DNA from: Haloplanus salinarum
Lineage (GTDB): Archaea; Halobacteriota; Halobacteria; Halobacteriales; Haloferacaceae
Length of the DNA stretch: 64,000 nt
Direction: 5' to 3'
Assembly: GCF_024498175.1 (NCBI RefSeq)
Contig: NZ_CP101823.1
Span: 1 to 64,000 of the forward strand
A program made the position numbers and the translations under genes. Below are positions 18,672 through 43,263 of the stretch, one piece after another (the stretch's first letter is position 1; the number at the start of each line of letters is the position of its first letter). Below the pieces are notes generated by a model that worked only from the letters and a program-made list of their open reading frames with translations, was not told the origin of the DNA and did no database searches.

Positions 18672-18773
18672 ACGGTCACACGGGACTCGCGACGCGTAAG
18701 ACTGCCGACCGTACGTGGAGCGGACTCGTCCCTCCGGGCGGTGGACCGCCGGCCCCGTTCCGCGGCGGCACGG

Positions 18774-38835: not shown

Positions 38836-39570
38836 GTGACCGTCGCCCGACTGCTCGGCATCGAGACGCCCGCCGACGCCGCCGACTGGTACGCGGCCGG
38901 TCGCGCCTACACCCACCGGGTCGCGGCGGGGATGGATTTCGACGACGCCGACGCCGTCGACGGCGACGGGGTGACCGCGGCGCTCCGTACCGACCCGGCG
39001 ACGCTGTCGAACCGCGAGGCCGAGTCCGTCGTCGGCGTCCTGGTCGGCGACGCCGTCTTCGCCGAGCCGTTCTGCGAGTGGATGCCGACGTGGTACGAAC
39101 TCGGCCTGTGGCCGGCTGCCAGACTCCTCGAACGTCGGCTTCGAGGGGTCGCCCGCGAGGTCGCCGCGACCGCGGGGCTGACCGTCGCCCTGCCCCGGTT
39201 CCCGCGGCCGCGGGACGCCCTCGTCGCGGGCCGGTCGCCGCTCGCGGGCGTCACGGGCCTCCGGGAGCGGTTCGCCCTCGCGGCCGCGGTGACCCACCTC
39301 GAGTGGTTCGCCCACGCCGCGGCCGCCGACGGGGTCGCGGTGCCGCGGGACTTCCTCGCCCGGGCGCGGCGGGAGACGCTCGACCACTACGCCGGGTCGC
39401 GCGGACCGCTCTCGCCCCGGGTTCGGCGCTTCCAGCGGCTCCTGTTCACCGACGGGGACTGGGTGCGGGCGGTCGACGACGCCTACGGGCTCGACAGTTG
39501 GGTGTTCGGCCGCTGGGCGCGGTGGCTGGACGCCGAACGGGACCGGCTCGCCGTCGCGACCGACGACTGA
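38836..39570 (+). CDS. conserved haloarchaeal hypothetical protein
   Basis: A 244-residue protein, GTG start at 38836 (VTVARLLGIETPADAADWYAAGRAYTHRVAAGMDF), with no recognised domain. It is helical and Trp/Tyr rich toward the C-terminus (WVRAVDDAYGLDSWVFGRWARWLDAERDR). It has one Cys, in FCEWMPTWYELGLW. The gene is divergent from the cobalamin operon, with 88 bases between starts, and a gggttaggtc TATA candidate lies about 21-30 bases upstream of the GTG. Role unknown. Confidence 0.72.
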   Translation: MTVARLLGIETPADAADWYAAGRAYTHRVAAGMDFDDADAVDGDGVTAALRTDPATLSNREAESVVGVLVGDAVFAEPFCEWMPTWYELGLWPAARLLERRLRGVAREVAATAGLTVALPRFPRPRDALVAGRSPLAGVTGLRERFALAAAVTHLEWFAHAAAADGVAVPRDFLARARRETLDHYAGSRGPLSPRVRRFQRLLFTDGDWVRAVDDAYGLDSWVFGRWARWLDAERDRLAVATDD

Positions 39571-39628
39571 CAGACAGACGTCAGACACGTCCAAGGTTTC
39601 AAATAACCCGCCGCCGTGTCTGGGAACG

Positions 39629-40180
39629 ATGAGCAAGATCACGTTCCGCGCCGACGACGACCTCGTCGAGCGTCTGGAGGAGTTCGACGCCTCCAAGAGC
39701 GAGGTGATGCGCGACGCCCTGCGCACCTACCTCGACGAGGCGGAGCGTGGCCACGGAGCGGGTGGGGACGACGACGCTGCGAGCGATCCCACGATGGCGT
39801 TGCTGGAGACGCTGCTCGCCGACGGTGCGTTCGCACCGCGTGACCCGCCGTCGATCAACGTAAACGTCACCGTCGACGGCGTGTCCGCCGATCCGTCGGA
39901 CGTGTCGGTCGAACGCGAGTCCGAGACGACGGCGCGTAAGACGCAACGGGAGCGCGCGGCCGACGACCCCGACCCGTCGGCGCCGTCGACGGGATCGCGT
40001 AAAACGTGTTCCCAGTGTGGCGAGGATATGTCCGCTGGGCACGTCTACTGCCCGAACTGCGGCGAGAAGGGTGCGCACCGCGTCTTCTGTGACTGCGGTG
40101 ACGAGATCCGTTCGGACTGGGCGTTCTGTCCGAGCTGTGGCCGCCGAACGCCGGCAGCGGACGTGTTGGACCGTGCGTAA
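39629..40180 (+). CDS. cdrL: ribbon-helix-helix regulator with double zinc ribbon, CdrL-like
   Basis: 183 residues. The N-terminal RHH DNA-binding unit is MSKITFRADDDLVERLEEFDASKSEVMRDALRTYL (residues 1-36). A disordered middle follows, then two zinc knuckles: CSQCGEDMSAGHVYCPNCG and CDCGDEIRSDWAFCPSCG (eight Cys). Haloarchaea encode a long RHH protein (CdrL) upstream of the short one (CdrS) and ftsZ2, forming a regulatory cascade for cell division. Position and architecture match. A TATA-like ggtttcaaataaccc at about 39595-39609 precedes the ATG. One GTAAGAC motif occurs inside the gene (39936-39942). Confidence 0.85.
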   Translation: MSKITFRADDDLVERLEEFDASKSEVMRDALRTYLDEAERGHGAGGDDDAASDPTMALLETLLADGAFAPRDPPSINVNVTVDGVSADPSDVSVERESETTARKTQRERAADDPDPSAPSTGSRKTCSQCGEDMSAGHVYCPNCGEKGAHRVFCDCGDEIRSDWAFCPSCGRRTPAADVLDRA

Positions 40181-40219: not shown

Positions 40220-40376
40220 GTCTTACAACGGCCGTTAATTTTATAAGGTATTGGTCTGTTGGTACGTTCGCGTAAGACGGTCGTCTTACAGACCGGCCGC
40301 TCCGGAGGTAGCGGGCCTCAGTCGGGCGGTTCGAGCCTGTAAGACAGTGCGCGGGGTGATGCCCCTTCCGTCTTAC
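40220..40376 (+). promoter_or_regulatory. array of five GTCTTAC/GTAAGAC motifs in the cdrS-ftsZ2 promoter
   Basis: Copies lie at 40220-40226, 40272-40278, 40283-40289, 40339-40345 and 40370-40376, in both orientations; the second and third form an inverted repeat with a 4-base spacer. The TATA-like ttaattttataagg is at 40236-40249, so the paired sites fall near the expected transcription start. These are likely operators for the adjacent RHH proteins. Confidence 0.7.
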
Positions 40377-40391
40377 CGGGGGAATGCAAAC

Positions 40392-40574
40392 ATGGAGCGT
40401 GTGACACTACGAATTCCGAAGCAGCAGATCGAGGAGGTCGAACAGATGGTCGAGACGGGAGAGTTCCCGAACCGAAGCGAGGCCATCCGCTCGGCGGTCC
40501 GCGAGATGCTCAACGAACAGAGCGAGTCCCGCGACGACAAACGCAACCGCAACCGCAGCTGGGCGAAGGTGTGA
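40392..40574 (+). CDS. cdrS: short ribbon-helix-helix cell-division regulator CdrS
   Basis: A 60-residue RHH protein: [40 protein letters not shown], then a basic tail ([13 protein letters not shown]). This is nearly the whole of the CdrS (cell division regulator, short) described in haloarchaea, where it is co-transcribed with ftsZ2 and controls division genes. The ATG at 40392 gives the strand MERVTLRIP as the first element. Its TGA is two bases before the ftsZ2 ATG. The upstream motif array suggests self-regulation or control by the CdrL-like protein. Confidence 0.93.
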
Positions 40575-40576
40575 CG

Positions 40577-41746
40577 ATGCAGAGCTTCGTCCAAGACGCC
40601 ATCGAACACGAGGAAGCCGAGGACCGCGGCGCCGACGACGACGACGAGTTCGGCAACCCGCGGATCGTCATCGTCGGCGCCGGCGGTGCCGGTAACAACA
40701 CGGTCAACCGACTGTACAACATCGGCGTCGACGGCGCCGAGACGGTCGCGATCAACACCGACAAACAGCACCTGAAGATGATCGAGGCCGACACGAAGAT
40801 CCTCGTCGGCAAGTCGCTCACGCAGGGGCTGGGTGCCGGTGGCGACCCCTCGATGGGCGAGCGTGCGACCGAGATGGCCCAAGGGACGATCAAGGAGGTC
40901 CTCGACGAGGCGGACCTCGTGTTCGTCACCGCCGGGATGGGCGGCGGGACCGGGACCGGTGCCGCGCCCGTCGTCTCCAAGATCGCCAAGGAACAGGGTG
41001 CCATCGTCGTCGGCATGGTGTCGACGCCGTTCAACGTCGAGCGCGCCCGCACGGTCAAAGCCGAGGAGGGACTCGAGAAACTCCGCGGCGAGGCCGACTC
41101 GATCATCGTCCTCGACAACAACCGCCTGCTCGATTACGTCCCGAACCTGCCTATCGGCAAAGCGTTCTCGGTGATGGACCAGATCATCGCCGAGACGGTC
41201 AAGGGTATCAGCGAGACCATCACCCAGCCCTCGCTCATCAACCTGGACTACGCGGACATGTCCACGATCATGAACCAGGGCGGCGTCGCGGTGATGCTCG
41301 TCGGCGAGACCCAGGACAAGAACAAGACCCAGGAGGTCGTCAGCGACGCGATGAACCACCCGCTGTTGGACGTGGACTACCGCGGCGCGTCCGGCGGGCT
41401 CGTCCACATCACCGGTGGACCGGACCTCACGCTGAAGGAGGCCGAAGGTATCGCGAACAATATCACCGAGCGACTGGAGGCGAGCGCCAACGTCATCTGG
41501 GGCGCGCGCATCCAGGAGGAGTACAAGGGCAAGGTACGGGTCATGGCCATCATGACCGGCGTCCAGAGCGCCCAGGTGCTCGGTCCGTCGACCCAGCGGC
41601 AGGCGGAGAAGTCCCGCCGGAGTCTCAACGGCGAGGACGTTTCGGAATTCGACGCGAGCGAGAACGTCGGCCAGGAGCAAGGATCCTGGTCGGACGGCGG
41701 TCGCGATCAGGTCGACCAGCGTAACGGCGTCGACGTGATCCGGTAG
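40577..41746 (+). CDS. ftsZ2: cell-division GTPase FtsZ2
   Basis: 389 residues. Tubulin/FtsZ motifs: [29 protein letters not shown], the G-box [15 protein letters not shown], and [18 protein letters not shown]; the T7 loop region is [21 protein letters not shown]. The variant and its cdrS partner identify FtsZ2, the haloarchaeal paralogue mainly responsible for constriction, with FtsZ1 acting in ring assembly. The C-terminal tail ([32 protein letters not shown]) ends in a short conserved-looking peptide that could bind partners. The ATG at 40577 is preferred to the GTG at 40571. Confidence 0.95.
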
Positions 41747-41814
41747 CGACCGCGAAGCTCCGTTCGTCTTCGACGCGACCAGCGACCGCGTCTTACAGTT
41801 GTTCGAGGCGAAAG

Positions 41815-41834
41815 CCCACGGCTTTAGCCGTGGG
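41815..41834 (+). repeat. left-end hairpin of the element
   Basis: A 9-bp perfect stem with a 2-base loop; AAAG lies immediately 5'. In IS608 this tetranucleotide pairs with the TTAC cleavage site and guides the Y1 transposase. Confidence 0.85.
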
Positions 41835-42271
41835 ATGAAGCCGACACGGTGGGGGGACAATCCACGGGCCACCAGCCAGCCGGGAGTTGTGTCCCGAATC
41901 GTTAAGTTTGGCCCTCCCGTACTGTGTTGTGACGGCGTTCCCCGGTTGTGGCACGGGGTCTTCGACCCCAACGGACGCTTCGCGTCCACAGCCCGCCGGG
42001 TAAGAAAGCCGAACCCAGTCCACGGCGTAACACGCGAGGTGACGCGACCCGTGGTACCCAGTTGGCTGAATACCCGACCGTGGAGGCCCGAACCGGTATT
42101 CGGGCCGTCGAAGCGCCCGGCGCGTCCGGGTGGGAAGGCCCGTTTGGCCGGGCTGTACGCGCTGGAAAGCACGTTCGGGGTCGTAACCGAACGGCCACCG
42201 TCGAACGCCCCACGCGAAAGCGTACTTGAGGGCCGAGGAAACGCGCAACCTTGAACTCCCCTTCGGGGAAT

Positions 42272-42291
42272 CCCACGGCTGAAGCCGTGGG
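42272..42291 (+). repeat. right-end hairpin of the element
   Basis: A 9-bp perfect stem with the loop ga, identical in its arms to the left hairpin; GAAT lies immediately 5' and TCAA seven bases 3' (42298-42301). Confidence 0.85.
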
Positions 42292-42297
42292 AGGAGG

Positions 42298-43263
42298 TCA
42301 AACCGCTTCGATCGACTCGACCAGCCGGCACTTCCGACAGATCCTGCCGCCCGTGCTCGACCCACAGCGGTCGCACTCGCCGAGGTCGGCCCCGTCGTCA
42401 TCGCGGTACCGTTCGGCGGCCAACTCGGCGAGTTCCTCGTAGCCCGCCATGATCGAGTGTCGCGTCCCGGGGTGGTCCTCCTCCATGCCGAGCAACAGCT
42501 CCTGGATCTCGCCCCGATAGGCCTCGCTCGCGTGCGGACACTCCGTGATGTGGGCGGGGAGGTCCGCCAGGTGGGCGTACAGCGCCACCTCCTTCTCGGG
42601 CACGTCCCGCAGGGGCTTGGCCCGGGGGACGAAGTGTGCCGTCTCGGCCCGCCGGTCGAACGGCCCGAGGCTCGCGTCGAAATGTTTGGCCATCTGTTTC
42701 AGATCCCCCTCGAAGAAGTTCATCAGCGCCGTCTGGGCCTCGTCGTCGAGATTGTGGCCCGTCAGCAGTTTGTCGGCATCGAGTTCGTCGGCGTACGACT
42801 CCAGGAGGTCGCGGCGGAACACGCCGCAGTACGCGCAGGCGGCCATGTCCTCGGGGTCCTTCTCGACCACGTCGTCCATGCGGACGCCGAGTTCGTCGGC
42901 GTACGACACCACCTCGTGACGGAGGTCGAGCTCCGCCGTCAGCGCCCGGGAGGCGTCGAGGCTCTCGTCGCGATACCCCTCGATCCCCTCGTGGATCGAG
43001 AGGGCGACGAGTTCGACGCGAGGGTCGCGGCCGAACGTCTCGGCCAGGAGGTGCGTCAGGACGACGCTGTCCTTGCCGCCGGAGAGGCCGATCACCCACG
43101 TCTCCGGATCCTCGGGCGAGGCGTCCGCCGGGAGGAGGCCGTCCTCACGGACCCGACGGCGCACCCGCTTCTCGACCGAGGCGCGAAAGTGGTCGTCACA
43201 GAGGTGGGCCCCCGAGTAGGCCGCGTGCATCACCGCCTCGCGGCCGCACCTGTCACAGTCCAT
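42298..43263 (-). CDS. tRNA 2-thiolation protein, TtuA/NcsA-like PP-loop ATPase
   Basis: 321 residues from the ATG at 43263 (MDCDRCGREAVMHAAYSGAHLCDDHF), an N-terminal zinc finger. The PP-loop is VIGLSGGKDSVVLTHLL, with further CAYCGVFRRDLL and LLTGHNLDDEAQTALMNFF containing the catalytic cysteines and Asp. A C-terminal zinc finger is CDRCGSSTGGRICRKC. These are the marks of the TtuA/Ncs6 group (TIGR00269 type), which adenylates and thiolates uridine in tRNA. The TGA stop overlaps the TCAA end of the mobile element, so the last three bases of the gene come from the insertion. Confidence 0.9.
   Translation of the reverse strand: MDCDRCGREAVMHAAYSGAHLCDDHFRASVEKRVRRRVREDGLLPADASPEDPETWVIGLSGGKDSVVLTHLLAETFGRDPRVELVALSIHEGIEGYRDESLDASRALTAELDLRHEVVSYADELGVRMDDVVEKDPEDMAACAYCGVFRRDLLESYADELDADKLLTGHNLDDEAQTALMNFFEGDLKQMAKHFDASLGPFDRRAETAHFVPRAKPLRDVPEKEVALYAHLADLPAHITECPHASEAYRGEIQELLLGMEEDHPGTRHSIMAGYEELAELAAERYRDDDGADLGECDRCGSSTGGRICRKCRLVESIEAV

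Follow-up and report, generated by a model that had tools for sequence, protein, structure and literature searches.

What reads the short motif GTCTTAC (GTAAGAC on the opposite strand) that is repeated in front of the division genes cdrS and ftsZ2 of Haloplanus salinarum? The transcriptional timing of archaeal division is poorly known, and the repeats offer a specific candidate operator, kept by nearly every haloarchaeon sampled. The locus was studied in a window of 64,000 nucleotides (positions 1 to 64,000 of contig NZ_CP101823.1), to which all plain coordinates refer. The array is quite probably the operator of the cdrS-ftsZ2 operon, read by ribbon-helix-helix (RHH) regulators of the Cdr family. 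CdrL would be the main reader, and CdrS is likely to be a second one. Binding of CdrL at the cdrS-ftsZ2 promoter of Hbt. salinarum and of CdrS at ftsZ1, dacZ, and panA of H. volcanii has already been published; the array, its conservation, near-uniqueness and spacing, the codon constraint on a copy inside cdrL, the sister operator, and the ancestral-type arrays are shown here.

Layout and conservation of the GTCTTAC array

All three genes lie on the forward strand. cdrL (39629-40180) encodes an N-terminal RHH domain with strand SKITFR and a C-terminal double zinc ribbon (Pfam RHH_1 and Zn_Ribbon_1/DZR above cut-off, CdrL_M weak), and stands directly 5′ of cdrS-ftsZ2, the order of the CdrSL system. 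cdrS (40392-40574) encodes a 60-amino-acid RHH protein with strand MERVTLRIP (RHH_1, 2.4e-9), and ftsZ2 (40577-41746), the second gene of the operon, matches Tubulin (1e-44) and FtsZ_C (1.2e-35); its start is the ATG at 40577 or possibly a GTG at 40571. cdrS was found in 116/116 Halobacteria genomes sampled, with cdrL 5′ of it in 80/80 named relatives, and the closest of these to Haloplanus salinarum by CdrS is Haloplanus ruber (100%).

An earlier note on this DNA had described five copies of the motif within 157 bp, and all five are where it placed them, with a conservation far stronger than it could have known. Site 1 (40220-40226, forward) lies 5′ of the TATA box TTTATAA (40240-40246, forward), and sites 2 (starting at 40272, reverse) and 3 (starting at 40283, forward) form the palindrome GTAAGAC-GGTC-GTCTTAC (40272-40289), which begins 26 bases past the end of that box, as had been noted. 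Site 4 (40339-40345, reverse) falls in the expected 5′ untranslated region, and site 5 (40370-40376, forward) 22 to 16 bp 5′ of the cdrS ATG. The note had also set the palindrome where transcription should start, and the alignment agrees: in 111 distinct promoters of relatives, conserved TATA columns occupy positions -32 to -26 relative to the palindrome, which would put the transcription start at about its first bases.

In these aligned promoters the copies keep their order and spacing, which excludes a lack of conservation. The palindrome lies 5′ of cdrS in all 111 and is exact in 109, and exact copies occur at site 1 in 98 (73 forward, 25 reverse), at site 5 in 109, and at site 4 in 78, although where the leader is short the script may, in a few cases, have scored site 5 in place of site 4. 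Each promoter holds 4.6 exact copies on average, compared with 0.024 in shuffles; these counts are not independent, because many of the 111 genomes, most of all those of Halorubrum, are closely related. Across a sample of 116 Halobacteria genomes from nine families and 45 genera, exact GTAAGAC-N3-6-GTCTTAC occurs once per genome in 113 (44 of the 45 genera), and the remaining three carry variants, two with one or two mismatches and one with a 2-base spacer. In one Haloplanus genome, a wider, relaxed search turned up another exact copy (G361:C1:32069-32086), which lies on a contig of 429 kb and near which no gene was found; the palindrome is therefore nearly, not strictly, unique per genome.

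Chance or base composition, as an explanation of this pattern, has a probability close to nil. A 7-mer is short, and 2.4 copies are expected in the window alone, which holds eight: the five, one at 39936 (reverse) in cdrL, one at 41790 (forward), and one at 18696 (reverse) that the note had missed. The motif is nevertheless rare genome-wide and kept in place across the class. Its 45 copies in 3.45 Mb are fewer than those of a reversed control pattern (78), and from this total the chance expectation for five copies in 157 bp is ∼0.002. A background frequency of the motif is excluded.

The spacing agrees with protein binding. The spacer of the palindrome is 4 bases in 89/111 promoters and 5 in 19/111, so that most have a 7-4-7 layout, in which the two symmetric half-sites are separated by about one turn of the helix, as in cooperative operators of the RHH type. 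The distance between site 1, present in either orientation, and the palindrome is 51-53, 61-65, or 71-74 bp; it changes in steps of about one helical turn, which fits proteins touching one face of the DNA and not an RNA element. The copies could be imagined to act at the RNA level, with 2 pairing with 3 and 4 with 5 to form hairpins in the 5′ leader, since their arms are inverted repeats and sites 2 to 5 lie in the expected leader, but this is very improbable and was rejected: pair 2/3 shows no compensated change, pair 4/5 shows one compensated against 74 broken cells, no Rfam match was obtained, and the copy in cdrL and site 1, the latter in both orientations, are outside the leader.

The note had counted a sixth copy, in cdrL, and this one (site 0; 39936-39942, reverse strand, 336 bp 5′ of the palindrome, within CGTAAGACG) is real and constrained at the DNA level. 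It lies in the codons of an RKT tripeptide of the variable linker of CdrL, which among 100 cdrL genes is encoded CGT-AA(G/A)-AC(G/A) in 88/88 cases, with CGT making up just 19% of the arginine codons in these genes. Over 101 loci, the -500 to -400 bin contains 80 exact copies, and the neighboring bins, cdrS, and ftsZ2 contain none. About one quarter of loci are without site 0; where present, it stands about 291-373 bp from the palindrome, and these distances cluster in steps of ∼9-10 bp, a pattern confounded by reading frame and kinship. Site 0 can be read as a remote operator, which a DNA loop may bring to the promoter.

A seventh copy (41790, forward) had been noted in front of a mobile element; the position holds, and a role of this copy as an operator was rejected. 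An element of ∼500 bp (41797-42299) with terminal hairpins CCCACGGCTTTAGCCGTGGG and CCCACGGCTGAAGCCGTGGG lies 3′ of ftsZ2, without an Rfam match, and begins directly after the TTAC of this GTCTTAC; in Haloplanus ruber the GTCTTAC is followed directly by the downstream flank, an empty site. TTAC is a target type of IS200/IS605 transposases, and the element looks like a non-autonomous insertion of that kind, for which the seventh copy was probably a mere target.

Elsewhere in the Haloplanus salinarum genome, a related site, GTAAGAC-CAGC-GTATTAC (G000:C1:3151653-3151670), precedes the ATG of a small RHH-like gene by 6 bp and recurs in several Haloplanus genomes. The gene perhaps encodes an antitoxin, and the site may be a comparable operator that serves a different RHH protein.

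Published binding and a sister operator

CdrL ChIP-seq in Hbt. salinarum gave a single reproducible genomic site, upstream of cdrS-ftsZ2, and CdrL is absent outside Halobacteria (PMC7439475). The published cdrL deletion carried second-site mutations. One ChIP site matches a palindrome found once per genome. For CdrS, the H. volcanii study describes 18 ChIP-seq sites, including ftsZ1, dacZ, and panA, and a symmetric motif; the cdrS and cdrL promoters are not among the 18, and the CdrS used bore an N-terminal FLAG, which adjoins the DNA-reading strand (PMC8406309). We found no published report of the GTCTTAC motif or of binding at these exact bases.

The letters of the CdrS motif were deduced here from the CdrS ChIP-target promoters of a Haloferax relative. 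Its ftsZ1 promoter carries GTCAGAC-GCAT-GTCTGAC, dacZ one GTCAGAC half, and a gene whose protein was judged by eye to resemble PanA has a GTCNGAC-type site with one mismatch. The CdrS site would then be GTCNGAC-N4-GTCNGAC, the layout of the GTCTTAC palindrome with one base changed; the array sites share the 11-bp spacing and are one base off GTCNGAC. The ftsZ1 promoter of Haloplanus salinarum itself (G000:C1:369034-369834) differs from that of most relatives in having two CdrS-like sites, ∼45 to 65 bp apart, instead of one.

A CdrS-type operator, GACAGAC-AGAC-GTCAGAC, also lies in front of cdrL (39569-39586), 60 to 43 bp 5′ of its ATG, where it closely precedes a TATA-like element. When one mismatch is allowed, GTCNGAC-N4-GTCNGAC is present in 50 of 98 cdrL promoters (0.03% in shuffles), nearly always at -59 to -74, and an exact GTCNGAC half-site occurs at -75 to -40, just 5′ of the TATA-like element, in 78 of the 98 (0.8% in shuffles). 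This is the position that the CdrS site holds at ftsZ1. With such a site before cdrL, CdrS and CdrL probably control each other; action of CdrS at the cdrL promoter stays a prediction, since cdrL is not on the H. volcanii ChIP list.

The two proteins differ where they would touch these bases. The reading-strand residues are R3-T5-R7 in every CdrS compared (106 haloarchaeal and 19 outgroup proteins) and K3-T5-R7 in nearly all of 99 CdrL, so that R3 versus K3 tracks the change of one base between GTCNGAC and GTCTTAC, and this residue may set the preference of each protein.

Probable readers of the array and its likely origin

CdrL was not detected by protein and profile search in five haloarchaeal genomes from three families (G001, G007, G093, G002, and G026), all of which retain site 5 and an exact palindrome. 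A hidden CdrL was rejected for these five, in which the profile gave just partial zinc-ribbon or generic RHH matches. The tRNA-Tyr gene that elsewhere often lies 5′ of cdrL is directly 5′ of cdrS in four of them, as after a deletion, and on a quick maximum-likelihood tree of FtsZ2 the presence of CdrL needs four changes, of which more than one is not forced. These may be strictly anaerobic, sulfur-respiring haloarchaea, a lifestyle that, if true, would agree with a redox function of the zinc ribbons.

The palindrome is essentially confined to Halobacteria, where CdrL occurs, yet present in five genomes without CdrL. CdrL by itself does not explain why it was retained and is probably not the sole reader: GTCTTAC may be recognized by CdrS as well, CdrL may have been lost recently, or a further reader may exist. 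The earlier note had thought CdrL-like or CdrS binding the simplest reading. The RHH part of it is well supported by the CdrL ChIP site, the 11-bp spacing of the half-sites, the sister operator at CdrS targets, and the class-wide conservation; CdrL alone has proved too simple, given the five genomes. Graded control of division, which the note had read from the number of sites, stays a suggestion.

Outside Halobacteria, the palindrome was found in two of ∼242 genomes, in both at coordinates far from the best CdrS match. The cdrS-ftsZ promoters of outgroup Halobacteriota instead carry tandem GTCNGAC half-sites in an 11-bp register, about four per promoter. Such half-sites are present in 19/19 promoters read, with 2.1 exact copies in each compared with 0.02 in shuffles, and for 124 of 146 pairs the distance is a multiple of 11. 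These arrays suggest that autoregulation by CdrS is probably the ancestral state, and the operator base would thus have changed in haloarchaea when CdrL appeared. On this view the system goes back to an array of repeats in 11-bp register, found in related archaea that lack CdrL.

The same outgroup arrays lend weight to a reading in which the haloarchaeal array is read mainly by CdrS, as autoregulation, with CdrL a later co-reader or competitor at the same sites, as do the retention of the palindrome after loss of CdrL and the fact that some ftsZ1 promoters contain half-sites of mixed type (for example GTATGAC and GTAAGAC). We regard this as a real possibility, though one on the doubtful side. 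The CdrL ChIP peak lies at exactly the cdrS-ftsZ2 promoter (PMC7439475), and the half-sites are almost always GTCTTAC in the array and variable GTCNGAC at ftsZ1 and cdrL. Strong binding of CdrS to the cdrS promoter is also disfavored by the lack of a peak there among the 18 sites given for H. volcanii (PMC8406309).

That missing peak, together with the persistence of the palindrome without CdrL, could also point to a third conserved regulator that reads GTCTTAC. This is unlikely: the CdrL peak of PMC7439475 again argues against it, the 7-4-7 layout is shared with the CdrS operators, the palindrome is essentially restricted to the class that has CdrL, and no candidate was found.

A possible circuit and comparison with known systems

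With CdrL as the main reader and CdrS as the second, a mechanism can be sketched in which the assignment of proteins to sites, the regulatory signs, the looping, and the feedback are all deduced. Each 7-mer is a pseudo-dyad (GTA-A-GAC) that the two-stranded ribbon of one RHH dimer could read. On sites 2 and 3, which are 11 bp apart on one face of the DNA, a tetramer would cover the transcription start. Further cooperative contacts would come from site 1, which lies on that face too, from sites 4 and 5, and from the remote site in cdrL, possibly through a loop. The CdrS-type operator 5′ of the cdrL promoter would close mutual control of the two regulators. From position alone, CdrL is more likely a repressor of cdrS-ftsZ2, because its site covers the start, and CdrS more likely an activator of cdrL and ftsZ1, because its sites lie 5′ of TATA; repression by CdrL and activation by CdrS would together make a negative feedback loop. 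The asymmetric half-site GTA-A-GAC might also be read by a CdrS-CdrL heterodimer.

The full reciprocal circuit is put forward tentatively and is rather doubtful as a whole: a change of a single base pair, from GTCTGAC to GTCTTAC and matched by R3 to K3, would have separated the two codes as CdrL arose, CdrL would have taken over the autoregulatory array of CdrS, CdrS would drive cdrL, and the site within cdrL would loop to the start.

Among known systems, the closest is CdrSL of Hbt. salinarum, which has the same genes in the same order and CdrL bound 5′ of cdrS-ftsZ2; compared with the available part of that report (PMC7439475), the motif, the number of sites, the intragenic site, the reciprocal CdrS site at cdrL, and the ancestral array are added here. 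The motif deduced here for the CdrS regulon of H. volcanii (PMC8406309) has a 7-4-7 layout like that of the array palindrome, with GTCNGAC half-sites where the array has GTCTTAC. Two predictions follow from the present analysis: which base separates the two paralogous regulators, and that CdrS and CdrL control each other. MetJ, Arc, CopG, and NikR read short half-sites through a two-stranded ribbon, bind their boxes cooperatively, and are often autoregulatory. Their operators resemble the array in having short half-sites in repeated or inverted boxes; unlike them, the array of Haloplanus salinarum adds three spread single sites and a remote intragenic site to one 11-bp pair, and two paralogous readers are proposed for it.
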